A stretch of 64,000 bases of DNA. Source: Mactra quadrangularis. Taxonomy: Eukaryota; Mollusca; Bivalvia; Venerida; Mactridae. Shown in pieces: positions 15,427 through 29,487 of the stretch (position 1 is its first letter; each line of letters opens with the position of its first letter). The DNA lies in contig CM046297.1 in the NCBI GenBank assembly GCA_025267735.1, positions 19,370,011 to 19,434,010 of the forward strand, read 5' to 3'. Both the position numbers and the translations under genes were made by a program. The notes under the pieces are model-generated. The model worked only from the letters and a program-made list of their open reading frames with translations. It made no database searches and was not told where the DNA came from.

Positions 15427-15741
15427 TTTATATTCTCATCGTACATTTTCAATGAAGTTCAACGCATTGCTTCGTAAAGCATTAATGAGCTTTGTACATT
15501 ATGTACATATATGTCTCTCTAATCATTTTCCATGTATAACAAAGAACCTACAGGCAGCCTTCTGCTTTACATGATTTATAGCACGCCGCGAGCAATGATC
15601 TCTGTGACGATGAGTTTTCTCAAAGCACACGCGATATGTTTTCTTTTGATCGTGCTGTAGAGCCTAAAGATATGTATTTTGAAATTGAAAATGTGAAAAC
15701 TACTTTTATATGACGAGAATAGTTAAAAGTAATTGTATTTT

Positions 15742-18793: not shown

Positions 18794-19314
18794 TAATTCC
18801 CCTCAAATTATTTAAAGTAAGGCGTACTAAATTATTTAACTATCAGTTAAATAAAATTAGATCCTATTTACTGTAATTGACTGAAGTAACTAATATGTTA
18901 CACAATTACTATAGGTTAATTTATTTAGTTGGATTTTTCTCAAAATAATTGCCTATCTACATACGAATTCCTTTCCACTAATGCCTTACTTCTAACAATC
19001 ATATCACGAGGGGTTTTAATAGATAGGAAATGGTGCCAATGCAGTTTCACATTTATATATATCACATAATCTGCAAAATTACGTAGTTATACGTATGCAA
19101 ATTTCAAACCAGGTACGTGTACAAAATTACATTACGTGTAAGTGTTAACGTTAAAATAAAACAATCCAGTCCACTTCATCAATTTTCAAAACATGGCACA
19201 TGAGTCCATACTATTGTGGTACAGTGACAAAGTATTAATTCTTGTGAAAACGTAAGACTTAGGTCCATATTTTTCTGCATAAAATTGCAAATGACCAAAA
19301 CCAGTAGGGAATAC

Positions 19315-19633
19315 TTCCCGTTCGGGAAACAAGGGGATTCCCCTTCAGTGCTTCCCGATCGGGCAGCAAATGTCAAAATGTTTCCCGATCGGGAAGGATT
19401 TTGGCCTTTTTTGACGTACCTTACTAAAAGTGACCGCTGCATAAAAGTATTTAACCTACAAAAATATGAAAAACACCATCTGATACAGGAAAGATGTATC
19501 TAAAATCCTACCGAGTCGTTTTCTTTTAAAATGCCTATAATTAAAATAATCCGAAATTGAAATTCAGAAAAAAATATGACTTCAAAGAAAAAAGTTGTTT
19601 CCCGTTCTGGAAACATTGCTTCCCGATCAGGAA
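19315..19633 (+). repeat. Cluster of five TTCCCGATCGGGAA-type palindromes (left arm)
   Basis: Fourteen-base palindromes TTCCCGNTCGGGAA or one-off variants lie at 19315, 19352, 19382, 19599 and 19620. They are mirrored in the right arm at about 21704-22027. Regular palindromes inside terminal repeats suggest binding sites for a dimeric protein such as a transposase; that is inference. A short frame crossing them (to 19503) is present in both arms only because the arms are duplicates. Confidence 0.75.
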
Positions 19634-19681
19634 GCAAGTTATACTACTTTTAATCATGTTAATATAGTTTGTATGTAATCC

Positions 19682-21665: not shown

Positions 21666-22290
21666 TGCATTACATACAAACTATATTAAAATAGTATAAC
21701 TTGCTTCCTGATCGGGAAGCAATGTTTCCAGAACGGGAAACAACTTTTTTCTTTGAAGTCATATTTTTTTTTTTTGAATTTCAATTTCGAATTATTTTAA
21801 TTATAGGCATTTTAAAAGAAAACGACTCGGTAGGATTTTAGATACATCTTTCCTGTATCAGATGGTGTTGTTCATATTCTTGTAGGTTAAATACTTTTAT
21901 GCAGCGGTCACTTTTGGTAAGGTACGTCAAAAAAGGCCAAAATCCTTCCCGATCGGGAAACATTTTGACATTTGCTGCCCGATCGGGAAGCACTGAAGGG
22001 GAATCCCCTTGTTTCCCGAACGGGAAGTATTCCCTACTGAAAACAAAGCAAAGAAAATGCTGCAGAAACTGAAATTTTAACACTATTTCAAGAACGTATT
22101 CCTCTATGCTTTGATGATATAGGGTTGCATCAACTCTGAATTAGCGACCAGGATAGGGGTCACGTTTTTGGTACGTTTATAATTATGTTAAGTTGACAAT
22201 AGAAGAAGAGCTATAAACTGCTTACCTTTTGACACATTTGCAATGAACTCCGAGCAATGAACCAACGAAAATGTAATTAATGTAAAAATG

Positions 22291-22619
22291 TAATTACATT
22301 TTATAGTCTGAGTTTCATGCTTACGCATGTTCACCGACTTTACAGCAATTACCCCTGGTCACTGGTGTACTGGTATCTATCTATCAATCCCCCTGTTAAT
22401 CTCCCTGGGGAGTCTTTTTACTCCGCTTATTAGTGCAGCCGACAAATTGGCGCAGCGGAATTATACCACCCTCGCAGGTACCCATTTACACCTAGGTGGA
22501 GTGAAGCAATCGCAGGTAAATTTCTTGCTCAAGGAAATTAGCAGTGCCCCTGGTAGGATTCGAACCCAGGACCTCTCGATCCCTAAGCGCGCGTCCTACC
22601 ACTGGACCACTGCTCCTAC
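22291..22619 (-). mobile_element. SINE family C copy inserted in the left terminal repeat of the virus-like element
   Basis: The body and head match the copy at 15742. It interrupts a repeat that is continuous at the right end, so it inserted after the virus-like element. The ORFs crossing it are repeat-derived. Confidence 0.9.
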
Positions 22620-22749
22620 TAATCACAAGTGTTTTTCGGTTATTTCATGAATATTCGGTTTTTCTGGGGTTTTTTTATAAATACATTTACCCGAAAATGT
22701 CAACCTCCATGAACAATAGTAGTAGAGGCGTCTCTTTGGCATCACGGAC

Positions 22750-22761
22750 TGCGCATGCGCG
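22750..22761 (+). promoter_or_regulatory. NRF-1/Ewg-type site in left terminal repeat
   Basis: TGCGCATGCGCG fits the NRF-1 consensus YGCGCAYGCGCR at every position. It faces inward about 420 bases before the PC4-like reading frame and is mirrored in the right terminal repeat. Function is inferred. Confidence 0.5.
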
Positions 22762-22762
22762 G

Positions 22763-22945
22763 ATGATTTTGTTTTTATTGTCTTGTGTGAAGTATATAAT
22801 TCTAAAAATAAATAGATTATTTAATAAAGCCCACAGTGAATTTCTTAATCCGTCAACGTATTGTTTACTGATTAAATAGAGTTGAATTTGTTTTTATTGT
22901 CTGTTATTGTAAAGTTAAGTATTTGATTCTAAAAATAAACATAGA
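22763..22945 (+). repeat. Imperfect tandem subterminal repeat
   Basis: A block of about 50 bases in the left terminal repeat (TTTGTTTTTATTGTC ... ATTCTAAAAATAAA, 22763-22813) is repeated in diverged form at 22883-22945, just inside the repeat. Subterminal repeats can be protein-binding sites at element ends. Here this is only an observation. Confidence 0.6.
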
Positions 22946-23170
22946 AAATGTTTTGACCGTATAAAACACCTTTACATAGTATAACATAAACTACAGTATG
23001 TGACTTCATTTAAACCTCTACATTCAATTTAATCTCTTTAGTCAATAACTTCACCATCAATTGACTTCTTTTTGTTCACAGTCTCATGGTACAAATACTG
23101 GCCTTATGCAAAATGTTAAAGTCAAGTTTGTTATACATTCTCCTTAATTAATGTACACATATAGTCATGA

Positions 23171-23407
23171 TACCAAGGATTTAAGTGTGTGGACATAAGG
23201 CAATTTTGGCTACCCCAGTGTGGTAGTGAAATTCGCGCTACTACAAACGAGTTATCTTTAACATTGGAACAATATAAGGCACTGAAAAACGGTCACAGGA
23301 TTTTGGACAGTTTTATGCCAGAACTTCCAACAATGTTCCCTGCTATTCAAATCCTCAACACACACAATTTTTGTATTGCTTTTAAGTGTAAGTCTGAATG
23401 TATTTAG
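23171..23407 (+). CDS. PC4/Sub1-like transcription coactivator domain (degenerate or missing its start)
   Basis: The frame runs from after the TGA at 23168 to a TAG at 23405-23407. Near its start it reads VDIRQFWLP, then SEIRAT and SLTLEQYKALK. The PC4 family has the same order: a VDIR-aromatic beta strand, a G/K-rich turn, then an SL..EQW..LK strand-helix junction. PC4 proteins bind single-stranded DNA and assist RNA polymerase II initiation. No ATG precedes the domain in frame; the earliest start-like codon is GTG at 23189, so the 5' end is lost, frameshifted (an ATG lies at 23167 in another frame) or supplied by splicing. It is transcribed rightward, opposite to the other element genes. 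An AATAAA follows at about 23458. The assignment rests on motif spacing only. Confidence 0.5.
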   Translation, partial: YQGFKCVDIRQFWLPQCGSEIRATTNELSLTLEQYKALKNGHRILDSFMPELPTMFPAIQILNTHNFCIAFKCKSECI

Positions 23408-23911
23408 TATATGTGTATGTCATCTACATATTCTATATATCCAACATTTAAATATAAAATAAAATTTGATAAAAAAACATGATGCGATCTTGCGTCAATG
23501 TATCTACAATGTGTATCTATATAGATATTGAGTAGGTATCCTCTTCTTTCAACCACTAGCAGGCATAAGGTTTACTGCCGTGGTCTGTTGCGCTAGACTT
23601 AATTGCGCATGTAAAGGTAAAAAGTGTATGAGGTTTTACACCCCCATGCCCTCTGCGCTATTTTTTCAAAAACTCAGTAATACAGAATTACTATATATAA
23701 GTACTATTCAATGTATGATACTCACTCGAACATAAATAACAAACAAGAAATAACTGTTTTATTTTTATTTACAAAATATTATATATATATATACAGGACT
23801 TTAAATATTTTAACAGTTTTCAATACACCATCATATTAGTACTAACTATCCTTTATCTATCAATGGGTTAAAACCCGTGTGAATCACTTTCTGCAAAAAG
23901 TCACGCGATAT
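23408..23911. other. Intergenic region between convergent transcription units
   Basis: This region lies between the 3' end of the rightward PC4-like frame and that of the leftward array. It holds an AATAAA at about 23458 for the plus strand and TTTATT runs near 23757-23770, which serve as AATAAA-type signals on the minus strand. A GC-richer patch at about 23560-23645 has no recognisable coding content. Confidence 0.4.
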
Positions 23912-24193
23912 CTAAGATTTTCGTACACTATTTTGATAGGGTGTTCCTCTTTTTTCTTTGCGTTTATGCCGTCTCTTTTTCGTATTTTGCTTATCCCATA
24001 CCTGCGCGGCGACATGAGACCTGATGTCCTGTCTACCGCTATAAAACAACCAATCTCGTCGTGTATCCAAAGGATACTGACGTTTCCACCAGTTGAAAAG
24101 TGTTTGTGTATTTTTTACTTCCCTAGACCAATGAAATTGAGCTATTTCCGTTGCTGTTGCTAATGGTGTTACCCATTTCATGTATTCAGTCAT
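23912..24193 (-). CDS. Small basic protein of the virus-like element (last gene of the minus array)
   Basis: The open frame extends back to a TTG at 24265, but the first ATG is at 24193, giving about 93 residues starting MTEYMKW. The N-terminal part reads WVTPLATATEIA and the C-terminus is strongly basic (KKRRHKRKEKR), like a nuclear-localisation or DNA-binding tail. The WVTPLATATEIA segment resembles KLVSPVAQATEMA in the product at 26311-26661, which also ends in a basic stretch, so the two may share a module. The CGTAAGAA motif sits at 24351-24358, farther from this ATG than in other genes. A short frame beginning at 24300 stops just before the main frame, so the true 5' end may be frameshifted. 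The function is not recognised. Confidence 0.6.
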   Translation of the reverse strand: MTEYMKWVTPLATATEIAQFHWSREVKNTQTLFNWWKRQYPLDTRRDWLFYSGRQDIRSHVAAQVWDKQNTKKRRHKRKEKRGTPYQNSVRKS

Positions 24194-24350
24194 GATGAAC
24201 ACTCCCTCACTCTTTCTGGGTTTGTTGTTATATTGTATATAACTAGGTCGGGTGTTTGTCGTCAAATTAATGAAGCGTTAAGGTGACTTGCTCGTCTCAT
24301 ATGACTCTAAATGTTGAATTGAGTCCTAAAACAAACTAAAACTTTACCCA

Positions 24351-24358
24351 TTCTTACG
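24351..24358 (-). promoter_or_regulatory. CGTAAGAA octamer before the last gene of the array
   Basis: The octamer sits immediately downstream of the stop codon of the 24361-24726 gene. No ATG opens the next gene at the usual 28-29 base distance; the nearest candidate starts are at 24300 (short frame), 24265 (TTG) and 24193. Confidence 0.5.
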
Positions 24359-24360
24359 TT

Positions 24361-24726
24361 TTACTCATCTTCGGATTTTTCCGGAACAAGCTTCTCATTA
24401 AGAGTGTGTTTATATATTCGTATAGCCTCTGCAATCGCAAACGGCACAGATAGCTGCGAGGTTATGTGCAAACGTTCTGCCGTGTCCATTAAACGTCTAT
24501 ATAGAGGGCACCGGTCCAAGTAGTAGACAGATACTAAAATATCTTTTAAAATGTCCCTGGACGTTTTTCTTAACTCTGGTAGCATAGTATTGATTTGTTT
24601 GCGTTGTGCCAAGAGACTAGCACACTCTGGAAAATTCTCCGCGGCCTCAGTCTCAACAATCCTTTGATACATTTCGCCGAGTCTAGGGCGAATCAACGCT
24701 CGTAAAACGCACAAGTCATTGTTCAC
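24361..24726 (-). CDS. Conserved-looking alpha-helical protein of unknown function, overlapping the ATPase gene
   Basis: The frame of up to 121 residues begins at a GTG (24726) whose bases overlap the TGA stop of the ATPase gene (GTGA). The first ATG is at 24672 and would give about 103 residues. The sequence looks helical and soluble, with charged heptad-like stretches (LLAQRKQINTMLPELRKTS), no signal peptide and an acidic tail (EKSEDE). The overlap suggests translation coupled to the ATPase message, or a start at 24672. The stop codon abuts a CGTAAGAA motif (24351-24358) that would serve the next gene. I do not recognise a family; its place behind a packaging ATPase suggests a role in assembly or DNA packaging, which is inference. 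Confidence 0.65.
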   Translation of the reverse strand: MNNDLCVLRALIRPRLGEMYQRIVETEAAENFPECASLLAQRKQINTMLPELRKTSRDILKDILVSVYYLDRCPLYRRLMDTAERLHITSQLSVPFAIAEAIRIYKHTLNEKLVPEKSEDE

Positions 24727-25748
24727 AAAATTTGCTTTGCAATCGGCATGGTTTTCAATAGTGTTTGTTTAATTTTCGGCAGTCCCGGTGGTAAGGGATT
24801 TTTAATGACGTCAAGACACTTATCTCCTCCAGGATTATCAATTCCATCATCGGCACTATCATCATTATCGTCGCTATCAATGCTTATATTATCAATCTCA
24901 TCATTGTATTCCATAGCAATTCGTTGTTTGGTTTTATCGCCAAATTCTTTTTTATTTATTTTACTAACGACAGCCGAAGGCGGTTCGTCGTCATACGCTA
25001 GTTTCCGTTTGCTAGGTTTAGAAAATATGTCAGTACGTAAGCGATCTTGTTCCTGTGTATCCGATTTCAAGTCTACTACTAGGTAACCATATGGTTTAGA
25101 AATGGCGTGATGGAATCGTTTCATGAATACGTTGCTATTCTGAGGGTACATTCGCCTTGCCAATGTTGACACTTGCTGTCTATCGACCGGGTTGTTGAAT
25201 AGTACAATATACTGGGTGTTGAGCGCAATATCCCTGCAGGCCTTGCCTTGTGGGAATAAATTCTGAGTGAGATAAATGATTGATAGATTTCTGTGATGTC
25301 TTCCTTTAGTAAACAGATCAGCGATTCGTGTGTCACATTTGGCTTCAGACATCAAATCATCAAAAACGATCAAGTTCTTCTTTTCCGTGTCTATATATTT
25401 TGATTCGTTGATATAGTCCGGAATACCGTGAACAAACTCTATACGCGACAATTGTCGTTCCAACTCGGTATACAGAGGTTGCCATTGACCAAAACACCAA
25501 ATGATTCTCTCTACTGACGGACTAATCAGATTTGAAAATAAAAGGGTTTTAGTCCACTCGGTCTTTCCGCTTCCGCTAGGTCCAGATATTACCATCGAAA
25601 ATGGATGTTGGAAAGAAACAGCACCAAGAGTCGATGATTTTGGATGATTTTGCGTATCATCTATCACCGATCGGTGCATTTTCTGAATATGTCTAACCAT
25701 ACTGTCCTTTCTCGAGAAATTACGATTGCATACAGCGCACGTAAACAT
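24723..25748 (-). CDS. C2H2 zinc finger fused to A32-like (FtsK/HerA-type) DNA-packaging ATPase
   Basis: The product is 341 residues. Residues 4-25 form one C2H2 finger (C4, C7, H20, H25; C-X2-C-X12-H-X4-H). The ATPase domain follows: Walker A GPSGSGKT at 56-63, Walker B LIVFDDLM at 126-133, then GRHHRNLSIIYLTQN at about 149-163, where the conserved Gln of packaging ATPases is expected. Residues about 283-309 are acidic and low-complexity. Viral A32-type ATPases translocate genomic DNA into preformed capsids; this assignment rests on Walker spacing and the GRHH...TQN motif. The ATG at 25748 is preceded by CGTAAGAA with 29 bases between. All catalytic motifs are intact and the frame is open, so this gene may be functional even though the element looks decayed. 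Confidence 0.85.
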   Translation of the reverse strand: MFTCAVCNRNFSRKDSMVRHIQKMHRSVIDDTQNHPKSSTLGAVSFQHPFSMVISGPSGSGKTEWTKTLLFSNLISPSVERIIWCFGQWQPLYTELERQLSRIEFVHGIPDYINESKYIDTEKKNLIVFDDLMSEAKCDTRIADLFTKGRHHRNLSIIYLTQNLFPQGKACRDIALNTQYIVLFNNPVDRQQVSTLARRMYPQNSNVFMKRFHHAISKPYGYLVVDLKSDTQEQDRLRTDIFSKPSKRKLAYDDEPPSAVVSKINKKEFGDKTKQRIAMEYNDEIDNISIDSDDNDDSADDGIDNPGGDKCLDVIKNPLPPGLPKIKQTLLKTMPIAKQIL

Positions 25749-25777
25749 TTTTATATATAATTTTACAAAAACTCTCC

Positions 25778-25785
25778 TTCTTACG
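25778..25785 (-). promoter_or_regulatory. CGTAAGAA promoter-like octamer of the ATPase gene
   Basis: CGTAAGAA on the minus strand, with 29 bases to the ATG at 25748. The intervening bases are AT-rich (TTATATATAA). The same octamer occurs at nearly the same distance before two other genes of the array. Confidence 0.6.
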
Positions 25786-26068
<283 letters not shown>

Positions 26069-26310
26069 GTACTAGTTTTGTATATGGAGTATGTATAGGA
26101 AAAACATAATGCGTATTATTGGTAGACTGTATTATTCATAATCATTTTATTAACATTAAACTTCACAATATATTGAAATACTGCTTCCAATCATTCACGT
26201 TTAATGACAACAATTATATTACTATTTATACATTCTCTGGACAGCAATGGCGTATCTCAGGGAGGTGAAACAATCAAAGACAGTTGTTCTTGATGATAAT
26301 CTTCCATGTT
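26069..26310. other. Gene remnant or spacer upstream of the GT microsatellite
   Basis: No long frame is present. On the minus strand a short frame starts with ATG at 26309 (MEDYHQEQLSLIV) and stops after 16 codons. It could be the beginning of a lost gene. Nothing else is recognised. Confidence 0.35.
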
Positions 26311-26661
26311 TTAGAATTGATAGTTTGGAGTAACTGCGTCCACGTCGAATCTCTTTTGTTTGATGTTATGTGTCAAGATTGTATCGTTCTTACGCTTTTG
26401 TGAGCCCTTCTTACGTTTAACTTCAGACATGGCCATTTCTGTCGCTTGTGCAACGGGTGATACTAATTTTATTGTGGGTGTCTGTTTCATTTCTGTCATT
26501 TTTCTGAAGTGATTACCGCTGCCTACTATGTAACGACCTTTATGATCGGGTTTAACGTAACCGTCTCTCAAATCTTTAAAATGCTGATACCATTTCTCTG
26601 GGTCTGGTACATAAGGGACCCATTTTTGCAGCTTATGATTGTATACCTCCATAGAGCCCAT
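26311..26661 (-). CDS. Small basic protein with KWYQHFKDL...GRYIVGSG motif, virus-like element
   Basis: The frame is open back to an ATG at 26712, but the ATG at 26661 has the better start context (A at -3, G at +4) and removes most of the overlap with the preceding gene. From there it is about 116 residues. It reads EVYNHKLQKW, DPEKWYQHFKDL and KGRYIVGSG, then KLVSPVAQATEMA and a basic tail (KRKKGSQKRKN). There is no signal peptide or membrane segment. The basic C-terminus suggests nuclear targeting or nucleic-acid binding. It overlaps the gene at 26633-27082 by about 29 bases, which fits polycistronic or densely packed viral genes. Proteins of this sort accompany packaging ATPases in invertebrate virus-like elements; I cannot give a function. 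Confidence 0.65.
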   Translation of the reverse strand: MGSMEVYNHKLQKWVPYVPDPEKWYQHFKDLRDGYVKPDHKGRYIVGSGNHFRKMTEMKQTPTIKLVSPVAQATEMAMSEVKRKKGSQKRKNDTILTHNIKQKRFDVDAVTPNYQF

Positions 26662-27082
26662 CTTGTCTTTTAAAATGTAGAATACAGTGAAGGTCGTTGG
26701 ATTCAAATACAACAGGATATAGGTTTTCGTCTCTCAAGTAGAGATTCAGTGAGTTGAAGTGGTTATTATTTAGAGGTAAGTATATTGGACGGTTGTACTC
26801 TACCAATAAATACTTTTTGTATCTGGTTCCAACTTCGATGTTCCTGAGAACGGGTACTTGCGTGTTTCTTACGTATGTTTGCTGTACTAGATCACAGCAT
26901 AAGTACAGTCTTTTACTTCGAGGTGTAAAGTTACACGTCACAGAAATTTCTTTTAAAGCACAAGTCCAACGTCCATCCAATATATACGACTTTGGGAACT
27001 GAACGAAAAATTCGGCAGGATTATTGTTCTTACGTATGTTCTGAGAGTCCGCGCTGTTGAGATAAAGGTAAAATTCGGTCAT
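26633..27082 (-). CDS. Structural-type beta-rich protein of the virus-like element (unknown function)
   Basis: The 149-residue product starts MTEFYLYLNSADS and continues NNPAEFFVQFPKSYILDGRW, then an alternating hydrophobic/polar stretch suggestive of beta strands. It ends HCILHFKRQDG. There are no cysteine pairs of a zinc finger, no signal peptide and no membrane helix. CGTAAGAA lies at 27112-27119, with 29 bases to the ATG at 27082, and it contains the TAA stop of the preceding gene. A beta-rich virion component is plausible from composition but is inference; no catalytic motif is visible. The ORF is intact, and its last 80 bases overlap the open frame of the next gene. Confidence 0.7.
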   Translation of the reverse strand: MTEFYLYLNSADSQNIRKNNNPAEFFVQFPKSYILDGRWTCALKEISVTCNFTPRSKRLYLCCDLVQQTYVRNTQVPVLRNIEVGTRYKKYLLVEYNRPIYLPLNNNHFNSLNLYLRDENLYPVVFESNDLHCILHFKRQDGLYGGIQS

Positions 27083-27111
27083 GTTTATACAATAAATAAA
27101 ACATCTTTGCC

Positions 27112-27119
27112 TTCTTACG
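27112..27119 (-). promoter_or_regulatory. CGTAAGAA promoter-like octamer, overlapping the upstream stop codon
   Basis: CGTAAGAA with 29 bases to the ATG at 27082. The TAA within the octamer is the stop codon of the gene ending at 27115, so signal and coding sequence are interlocked. Confidence 0.65.
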
Positions 27120-27456
27120 CCTCTGTGGTGGTTAATATTTCGTCTACAATAGTGTCAATTAGGTGTGTCGTTCTTAATATTATGGGTACGATAGAGTGAT
27201 GTCGTCTGAGCATCATTTTTTTCCTTTTCAGAGACACATTTTCAGACTTCAGGGATCGTAGCAAAAGGCGTCTTTGTTCGAGTAACTGAACATCCCTTCT
27301 CGCAGGATTAATGATACCATTCACTAGTCTTTTGGCCACTTGCATGATAGTCTTCATTTGGCTAGTGTTCATGTTAGCTATCAAATCCCTCCTGACAGCC
27401 ACTGTGGCATCTTTAAGTTGGAGAAGATAGTTGAGATTTTGGTACACTCGAGACAT
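27115..27456 (-). CDS. Small very basic helical protein of the virus-like element
   Basis: The 113-residue product, starting MSRVYQNLNYLLQL, is rich in Lys, Arg and Leu. A central leucine-rich, coil-like part (QLLEQRRLLLRSLKSENVSLKRKK) is followed by a basic patch and a hydrophobic C-terminal stretch (IVPIILR). This composition recalls small basic core or packaging proteins of linear DNA viruses, but I see no diagnostic motif and do not assign a family. CGTAAGAA at 27485-27492 stands 28 bases before the ATG at 27456. The TAA stop lies inside the octamer of the next gene, showing how tightly the array is packed. The frame is intact. Confidence 0.65.
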   Translation of the reverse strand: MSRVYQNLNYLLQLKDATVAVRRDLIANMNTSQMKTIMQVAKRLVNGIINPARRDVQLLEQRRLLLRSLKSENVSLKRKKMMLRRHHSIVPIILRTTHLIDTIVDEILTTTEA

Positions 27457-27474
27457 GATTGCGTTCAGTTTATT

Positions 27475-27971
27475 TTAGTTTTCTTTCTTACGTGTGTAGA
27501 GTTCTAGTTCAATAAGAGTTGGACAGACCACTTCTTCCAATTGATTTGTTGATTTTAACCCCGTGATAATCACCTTTCCACTATATGAAAACAACAAAAG
27601 TTAACTCCAGAACATTTGAAATTGAGGCCTGGAAACAATTCTGGTTCATAAATGGAACCTCTATCCTGACTCAAAGTCAATAGATCTAAACCCGAACTTA
27701 GTGTATGACTGGCGGACATTGTGATACACTTTACATCCTTTAAACATACAGCATATCCAAGCTTCTGTAAACGTTTAGCATATTGACGAAGTCTCTGGCG
27801 ACCTTCTTTGAAACTCTTGGCTGCCCCGTTGCAGTTAATGACAGCGTTAGAAAACAATAGACAATTTCCTCCAATAGTTCTGTGTTGCCATATTAAACCT
27901 TGGAATTTTCTAGGATCGTAACGAACATTGACTGAACGATAACATAACTTTCTCAAGTCTATATAACTCAT
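27475..27971 (-). pseudogene. TATA-binding-protein (TBP) homologue with a frameshift near its end
   Basis: The first frame (27570-27971, 133 codons) shows the two-repeat TBP saddle pattern. Repeat 1 has YDPRKFQGLIWQ, LLFSN and LRQYAKRLQKLGY; repeat 2 begins YEPELFPGL, a signature of eukaryotic TBP. The frame then shifts at about 27583-27587 and stops at 27570. In the shifted frame the expected GKV.ITG strand appears, and coding continues to a TAA at 27475. Length from ATG to that stop (about 165 codons) approaches a TBP core of about 180. TBP bends promoter DNA to nucleate the polymerase II initiation complex. The gene is the most upstream in the array, next to the right terminal repeat, as expected for an early regulator. 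An unconventional frameshift or an assembly error could also explain the break. Confidence 0.8.
27485..27492 (-). promoter_or_regulatory. CGTAAGAA promoter-like octamer inside the tail of the TBP-like gene
   Basis: CGTAAGAA with 28 bases to the ATG at 27456. It lies within the last codons of the TBP-like gene's downstream frame, again interlocking a signal with coding sequence. Confidence 0.65.
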
Positions 27972-28014
27972 GAATGGTGCAACGCTATTAAATGGTATAC
28001 ATACTTGAGTACGA

Positions 28015-28022
28015 TGACGTCA
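28015..28022. promoter_or_regulatory. CRE/ATF palindrome upstream of the TBP-like gene
   Basis: TGACGTCA, a perfect cAMP-response-element consensus, lies 43 bases before the ATG at 27971. Another copy lies inside the ATPase coding sequence (24806-24813), so chance cannot be excluded. Confidence 0.3.
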
Positions 28023-28169
28023 TGAACAAGTTTAAACATGATTTCTCGTCCGCTCTATACTACTTCAATTATTGTGCAAAACAATTACTCATCCTTATAC
28101 GAGTCATTACAAAAACAAGGTATGACCTGAGACGCTTGTTGGGGCTAAAGTTTTCGCTGATATAGTAAT

Positions 28170-28406
28170 TTATTTTTAGAATTACATACTTCACACAGGA
28201 CAATAAAAACAAAATCATCCGCGCATGCGCAGTCCGTGATGCCAAAGAGACGCCTCTACTACTAACAATAATAAGCGAAAGTGAAATGTTGTAAAATTTA
28301 TGAAGGACGTTGGTTTTCGTTGTTTCATTGCTCGGAGTTCATTGCAAATGTGTCAAAAGCTAAGCAGTTTACAGCTCTTCTTCTTCTTCTATTGTCAACT
28401 TAACAT
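28170..28406 (-). repeat. Right inverted terminal repeat of the virus-like element (uninterrupted)
   Basis: About 237 bases are inverted relative to the left end. They share the NRF-1-like core, the block reading GTAGTAGAGGCGTCTC and the outer GTTAAGTTGACAATAG block. A short GAAGAAGAAG run is longer here than on the left. This copy shows the state before the SINE inserted into the left repeat. Confidence 0.85.
28220..28231 (-). promoter_or_regulatory. NRF-1/Ewg-type site in right terminal repeat
   Basis: This is the mirror copy of the left site, lying about 250 bases upstream of the TBP-like gene. It is a perfect match to the NRF-1 palindromic consensus, which in animals often drives TATA-less promoters. 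Its use here is inferred. Confidence 0.5.
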
Positions 28407-29487
28407 CTTTACAAACCCAAAGTAAATCCATTGAGTGGTAATACAATAAAAGTTATTCAAGCTTCGAAGCGAATGGAAATTTAAAGTTTAAAACTTTTAA
28501 GTGATACTGTGAATATAAACGAAGGACACATTTAGTAGGTACATGCGGTCGCAGTGATTCCGTGTGTAAACTTGGGTTTTCCCACTGATAAAAATAGAAC
28601 ACAAAGTAAACTGATCAAACGCAGCTTGTCTCAACACTGGTACAGTCCGAAAAAGGTCAATGCGTGATGTGTATATTCAAATGGACTTAGTATAAAAATT
28701 CCAATAAACTGGAATAAGTTGCAGTAAACTATATATACGAATAAATTCGTATAAAATGTAAATATACATTTGTATATATAATATATTCTCGTTATACGAA
28801 ACGGATAACTATTACTTTCGTATAAATCAATTTTATTTGCCGTCTTATAAAGACTAAACAATGGTGAAGTTATTTTTGTATGTTTGGCCACCTGACCAAA
28901 TTCATTTTAATAAAAATCCTACGCACATAACAGATGAAAACTTTAAATAGAAAAGACAGATCATCTTTTAGATTTTAATTATTGTCTTCACGTCACACGC
29001 AAGGGACTCGTTGTTAGCACCGCAGTATTTCACGAATTCCCCGACGTGGCCTCATTCATTATTGAGAAGCTGTTGCTTTTTATTAAAACAAAACTACTAC
29101 AAAGACGAATTGAACTAACTTATCGGTGTGATCATGTACGGAGCACTATTTACGACGCAGAAATTCATTTCAGATGAAAAGGGAAGTAATCATAACTGCA
29201 TATATCTAAAGACTCTATAAGATTAATCTCCCTTGAAAATGAGGAAAGCAGTTTTTCCGGAAGCTATTTGCATTGTACTATATAGATTTTAAAAATACAA
29301 ATCCAATTATTTTATACTGACTTTAATTGTTTAGATCTACTTATTCAGTAAAGATTTGCGATAAGGGCCATCAAAATTAATTATCTTGAATTCTGTACTT
29401 TATTCCGCAAAGCTTTTGTTACAATATATTATTTTATATTTTGGTTTGTAAACTTGCAGACTGGATGAACATGTATCAAAATACACT
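28407..29487. other. AT-rich flank right of the virus-like element
   Basis: Holds small AT palindromes around 28736-28800. No gene is seen, and no match to the left flank that would mark a target duplication. Confidence 0.5.

Follow-up and report, generated by a model that had tools for sequence, protein, structure and literature searches.

A bivalve Maverick/Polinton lineage encoding a TBP and a tandem-PC4 protein, and its reduced derivative in Mactra quadrangularis

Main finding

The window analyzed here is a 64-kb stretch of the 979-Mb genome of Mactra quadrangularis (contig CM046297.1, positions 19,370,011 to 19,434,010). It contains a non-autonomous, decayed, and defective derivative of a Maverick/Polinton lineage with its own TATA-binding protein (TBP). 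In relatives of this copy, a two-lobed TBP and a tandem-PC4 protein are encoded together, and a conserved octamer precedes several genes. Judged by its residues, the element TBP is a TBP with an altered DNA-reading floor and preserved TFIIB-contact residues. We lean modestly toward the explanation that this Maverick lineage carries its own initiation factor, a TBP that would read the octamer and hold host TFIIB.

Full-size relatives and Maverick core genes

Relatives were examined in 21 genome stretches of 3-10 kb. Loci L021 to L038 were searched with the frames of the window, and all 21 were searched with the proteins of the relatives; the absence of a gene at a locus means its absence from a stretch of at most 10 kb. 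The four core Polinton genes, as named in PMC3671162, are polymerase B, integrase, C5 protease, and packaging ATPase. Locus L027 carries all four, with polymerase B present there only as a 113-aa piece at the stretch edge. Pfam profiles detected polymerase B in L025 (1.6e-24), and an rve integrase (5.7e-13) and TBP (2.5e-27) in L031; L025 and L031 between them also contribute an ATPase. The C5-type protease (Peptidase_C5; 0.00042 in L031 and 0.00054 in L027) and the A32-like ATPase (0.00015 in L027) scored slightly below the cut-off. By these profile matches, the full-size TBP-bearing relatives carry Maverick core genes.

A frame of 438 to 459 aa occupies the capsid position in L027 and L031 and is a candidate for a double jelly-roll major capsid protein, but its protein gave no match of known function in Pfam, PDB sequences, or PHROGs. 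No TFIIB-like family was found by Pfam scan among 20 frames of L025, L027, L031, and L039, as expected if host TFIIB is used. IMG/VR scans with the TBP, capsid-position protein, ATPase, and PC4 returned pattern matches, none of which was confirmed as a relative, and two scans of prokaryote genome contigs revealed no host-contaminated contigs.

At L025 and L040 (G000:C14:20621000-20633999), two inverted PC4-integrase-TBP-orfC copies face each other about 5 kb apart. Another Maverick, L036 (G000:C5:19990000-19999999), has dozens of near-identical genome copies, suggesting a recent burst of this type; its ATPase frame is 229 aa long, its polymerase B and integrase frames are open, and its stretch has no TBP, PC4, or octamer.

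Association of PC4 with TBP

A sequence-only reading of the window had proposed that one mobile element encodes both a TBP homologue and a PC4/Sub1-like domain. Profile placement, one of the tests named by that reading, left both assignments standing, as relatives of the two frames fell in the TBP and PC4 families, respectively. The public-protein PC4 family had 24 members. Complete PC4 relatives scored 79.3, 48.3, and 44.5 bits against the 25-bit Pfam cut-off, and Pfam scores of the tandem-PC4 proteins in complete relatives were 1.5e-22 (L025), 1.1e-11 (L027), and 6.9e-13 (L031). These proteins end in a conserved Cys-His-Cys-Cys pattern, a tail that could bind zinc.

TBP was present at 12 of the places examined (the window, L021, L022, L023, L025, L026, L027, L031, L032, L033, L037, and L041), and the genome has further TBP places beyond these. 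The proposed co-occurrence was not refuted: PC4, whole or partial, was found at 11 of the 12, the exception being L041, a 65-aa TBP remnant in a 6-kb stretch. Among the eight loci without TBP (L024, L028, L029, L030, L034, L035, L036, and L038), none had PC4; in L024, just 38 aa match the beginning of the window TBP frame, and this portion is not TBP-like. In the window, L021, and L023, a pair of matching terminal repeats encloses all three of TBP, PC4, and ATPase.

Whether PC4 and TBP are a pair is evenly balanced. The tandem-PC4 protein may instead be the single-stranded DNA-binding protein of the element's replication, with TBP as its neighbor by gene order only. Against this, the stretches of the TBP-less Mavericks L034 and L036 contain polymerase B without PC4, so that PC4 follows TBP rather than the polymerase.

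TBP residues and the octamer

The public-protein TBP family had 108 members. Complete relatives are about 175 aa long and form the two-lobed TBP saddle, and the chain ends after the TBP core. Residues were counted in 44 sampled family members. The bending phenylalanines F99, F116, and F190 were present in all 44 members, and F207 in 31. The TFIIB-contact acids were likewise maintained (E186 in 41 members with D in 3; E188 in 43 with D in 1), and the EPEL loop is retained, as are N69 and T215. At the base-reading positions of TBP (PMC12529657 Table 1), N159 was changed to T and V161 to S in 43/44 members each, T124 to N in 39/44, and V122 to N in 38/44; the floor is polar throughout the sample.

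The octamer CGTAAGAA occurs eight times on the coding strand and never on the opposite strand within 22186-28406. Excluding the GT tract, the element holds seven octamers, compared to a mean of 0.22 and a maximum of 2 in 300 dinucleotide shuffles; the remaining 57,780 window bases hold two, both strands counted. The repetition of this motif, claimed by the sequence-only reading, was thus upheld, but its fixed distance before genes is true of only three of the eight. These three, all on the minus strand like the other five, lie 36 nt before orfB (27485..27492), 37 nt before orfC (27112..27119), and 37 nt before the ATPase start (25778..25785). Another follows the ATPase C-terminal piece, 165 nt before orfE (24351..24358), two lie inside orfC (27027..27034 and 26866..26873), and two inside orfD (26408..26415 and 26387..26394).

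In relatives, the octamer takes the form YGTAAGAA. The sample comprised 32 genes from the window, L025, L027, L031, and L030, with each gene represented once per lineage; L030 contributed two genes, one with the octamer, and has no TBP in its stretch. An octamer started 30-50 nt before the start codon in 11 of the 32 genes (10/30 without L030); when the 32 upstream stretches were shuffled by mononucleotide 2000 times, the mean was 0.04 and the maximum 2. In the TBP-less control, none of 13 starts had the octamer (10 genes in L036 and 3 in L034; L035 was outside the count). The integrase octamer was present in L025 and L027, and lay 70 nt upstream in L031. No octamer preceded the TBP starts (0/4, one truncated), the PC4 starts (0/3), or the capsid-position protein and protease (0/4, both in L027 and L031), and none was found at 30-50 nt before orfD (0/4). 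The capsid-position protein, protease, and orfD follow their preceding genes closely.

In the window and L025 lineages, the orfB octamer overlaps the TBP gene end, where it is read as Arg-Lys codons. The equivalent site of L027 reads into a stop codon, yet the octamer persists, which argues for selection on the DNA. GTAAGAA as a splice signal was rejected, as by-eye inspection revealed no AG acceptor pattern before the starts. A TATA box precedes PC4 at some loci. However, the window has 2.1 TATAWAW per kb of each strand, and such a box is missing from two of the seven other PC4 loci; no TATA claim is therefore made for PC4.

Promoter reading and its alternatives

The sequence-only reading had proposed that factors encoded by the element redirect host polymerase II to late promoters of the element. 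As far as it concerns the TBP and the element's promoters, irrespective of late timing, this gained indirect support from the sequences, because the TFIIB residues are kept, the DNA face is changed in an ORF24-like manner, and the octamer stands before genes of diverged relatives. In the mechanism we propose, PC4 and TBP, whose starts have no octamer, would be transcribed first by host factors. The element TBP would then bind the octamer, bending the DNA through its retained phenylalanines, and hold host TFIIB via the EPEL loop. Host polymerase II would thereby be recruited to a set of genes that includes integrase, orfB, orfC, and ATPase. Single-stranded DNA would be bound by the tandem-PC4 protein, either at the promoter bubble or while the element's polymerase carries out replication. 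More tentatively, and with slightly less than even confidence, this may be an animal Maverick lineage with its own promoter code, in which a TFIIB-contacting TBP with a rebuilt DNA face reads YGTAAGAA and switches polymerase II from early to late genes.

Several observations weigh against octamer reading by the element TBP. The octamer may instead be an initiator or serve as some other signal. At 30-50 nt it is missing from 21 of the 32 sampled starts, including those of the capsid-position protein and protease. Some window octamers are coding Arg-Lys codons. It precedes the ATPase in L024, L028, L029, L030, and L038, which have no TBP in the stretch, and L034 and L035 hold a few YGTAAGAA, none preceding a start. 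The compared lineages are related, the 13-gene control was drawn from only two loci, and F207 is retained in only 31 of the 44 sampled members.

It is unlikely, though a serious alternative, that the element TBP acts either as an ordinary TATA factor or as a booster or decoy of host transcription in general, with the octamer an initiator or other signal that host factors read instead of the TBP. Such a role would fit the kept bending phenylalanines, N69, and T215, the A+T-richness of most sampled upstream stretches, and the octamers kept in reduced copies without a local TBP. It is opposed by the changes at the base-reading N159, V161, V122, and T124 in 38 to 44 of the 44 sampled members.

It is very improbable that these TBPs are genes of the host, or fragments captured from it, that play no role in the element, because, despite the public label TATA-box-binding protein-like 1 on one Mercenaria member, the element TBPs form one clade separate from cellular TBPs in the tree, are 25-35% identical to human TBP yet 47-81% to P0001 within the family, and lie beside integrase or between Maverick repeats at most examined loci. 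Named members of the TBP and PC4 families came from Mercenaria, Mytilus, Pinctada, Crassostrea, Saccostrea, and Mactra, with one filed under a Sedimenticola metagenome bin. The public bivalve proteins P0003 (TATA-box-binding protein-like 1) and P0229 (Transcriptional coactivator) belong to these two families and are probably not host genes.

Two other readings of TBP frames found no support. The L041 remnant has element-like residues and was not accepted as a host TBP. An origin from the metazoan TBP-like factor (TLF) was unsupported, as identity to human TLF was 24-31% compared to 25-35% for human TBP; the tree, with its long branches, left this question undecided. In the alignment, human TLF appears to have three of the four bending phenylalanines replaced.

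Gene content of the window copy

The TBP frame (27570..28019, minus strand) matched Pfam TBP at 9.6e-13 and human TBP in PDB at 1.6e-15, confirming the predicted homologue; it lacks the first strand and the second-lobe end of the complete relatives. Three minus-strand frames without assigned function adjoin it: orfB (27115..27474), conserved in six other loci; orfC (26633..27154), retained beside integrase/TBP in full-size relatives; and orfD (26311..26733), which immediately follows orfC in relatives. A (GT)n tract (25785..26064) separates orfD from the ATPase; long simple repeats (GT or related) likewise lie immediately upstream of the ATPase in L021-L024 and L028-L030. The predicted packaging-type ATPase was also confirmed (Pox_A32 8.9e-9 and Adeno_IVa2 2.5e-6 in Pfam). 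Its main part (24726..25757, minus strand) combines a weak C2H2 finger with an A32-type ATPase, and the C-terminal piece of the same protein lies in a different frame (24361..24768, minus strand). A further frame, orfE (23912..24277, minus strand), has no assigned function.

The PC4-like frame (23171..23407, plus strand) is a remnant of the second domain only. On its own it remained under the Pfam cut-off (18.6 versus 25 bits, E 0.0014; PDB PC4 E 0.58), and its assignment stands through homology to complete PC4 relatives, one of which matches it through its second PC4 domain at 57% identity over 66 residues. Upstream of the frame, no convincing trace of the first domain was detected.

The TBP, PC4, and ATPase frames of the window are thus all incomplete or split. 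Integrase, polymerase B, and C5 protease were not found in 22186-28406, where the ATPase is the only core gene. Because three of the four core genes are missing, the window copy was classed as a reduced derivative and not as an autonomous Maverick, and because it is defective, the intact transcription 'kit' belongs to the longer relatives.

Element boundaries and copies

A mobile element had been placed at 22186..28406. The element is present, but these bounds were too wide; its true ends are 22718 and 28263 (5,546 bp). The termini are AGTAGT on the left and ACTACT on the right, bounded by a perfect 6-bp target site duplication, AACAAT (22712..22717 and 28264..28269). The terminal inverted repeats (22718..22813, plus strand, and 28168..28263, minus strand) are identical at 95/97 positions, and the right one has 21 genome matches. 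All four loci with both inverted repeats (the window, L021, L023, and L024) have (AGT)2/(ACT)2 ends and a perfect 6-bp duplication, which at the latter three is ACTAGA, ACGGGC, and ACTATA, each locus having its own. Vertebrate Mavericks, according to PMC8097293, have (AGT)2//(ACT)2 ends and 6-bp duplications. The ends and target duplication of the window element are therefore of Maverick type.

An outer inverted repeat (about 22175-22301 and 28284-28416, about 83-88%) flanks the insertion and belongs to the target locus, as does a repeat resembling a short interspersed nuclear element (22302-22620), with further window copies at 15741 and 58743. The Maverick was inserted within an older palindromic repeat. 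Just left of the element, an inverted-repeat pair (19302-19650 and 21688-22039; 98-99% complementary, about 2 kb apart) forms a transposon-like unit. Long inverted-repeat pairs 9-11 kb apart were also present at 29487-30040/40164-40597 and 41308-41706/50478-50876.

L021 matches nearly the whole element at 98%, and the 21 terminal-repeat matches yielded six inverted-repeat pairs spaced 5.5-7.7 kb, including that of the window; the reduced form has thus been copied. In the proposed mechanism, the window copy would have spread in this reduced form, with integrase presumably supplied by other copies. L024 resembles the ATPase half (91% over 23709-25796), whereas L025 and L037 resemble the TBP half (89-97% from 26228 onward), and the changeover sits near the GT tract. 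Because the halves match different loci, the reduced subfamily may be a combination of two Maverick lineages. The ATPase of this subfamily shares only about 37-38% identity with the ATPase of the TBP-bearing L027.

Comparison with known systems

Herpesviruses and giant viruses are known to encode TBPs, in many cases alongside a viral TFIIB or larger viral complex. If the proposed mechanism holds, a bare-core Maverick TBP with host TFIIB contacts and a changed DNA face would be among the simplest polymerase II takeovers, and the timing of Maverick gene expression could be tested using one protein and one 8-bp site. Caution is also warranted with bivalve proteins labeled TBP-like or transcriptional coactivator, as these can be element genes.

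Nothing was found in the literature on Polintons with PC4 or with TBP and PC4 together; many subscription papers were outside our coverage, and a prior description is possible. In one paper that mentions both Polintons and TATA-binding proteins, the latter belong to mirusvirus-like elements. Two adintovirus-related preprints contained no mention of TATA or PC4 (TBP was checked in one), with the adintovirus founding paper outside our coverage.

The lineage shares with Maverick/Polinton elements the (AGT)2/(ACT)2 ends and 6-bp duplication, and its relatives the polymerase B, rve integrase, C5-type protease, and A32-type ATPase. It differs in adding the TBP and tandem-PC4 genes and the octamer, and the window copy lacks three of the four core genes. 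The PC4 fold and Pfam PC4 score are shared with the single-stranded DNA-binding proteins PC4/Sub1 and Pur-alpha, and the tandem layout resembles Pur-alpha repeats I-II; however, the element protein has two PC4 domains in one chain and a Cys-His-Cys-Cys tail. Giant-virus TBPs have in common a virus-encoded TBP fold, the best BFVD matches reaching a TM-score of at most 0.76 and an identity of at most 22% among the 35 with E <= 0.001.

The late-gene TBP mimics of beta/gamma-herpesviruses, including ORF24 of Kaposi's sarcoma-associated herpesvirus (KSHV), share Asn at V122 and T124, a polar base-reading floor, and the kept bending phenylalanines. The element TBP may be likened to them in how it would work, while falling outside their class. 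It is a bare core of about 175 aa without the extra C-terminal DNA-binding domain of the mimics, and it keeps the TFIIB acids that KSHV ORF24 lost. N159/V161 are T/S in the element TBP but N/N in KSHV ORF24, and the promoter motif also differs. It is conceivable, if somewhat doubtful, that the element TBP converged with herpesvirus late-gene TBPs at two residues, V122 and T124, as part of promoter-code reading.

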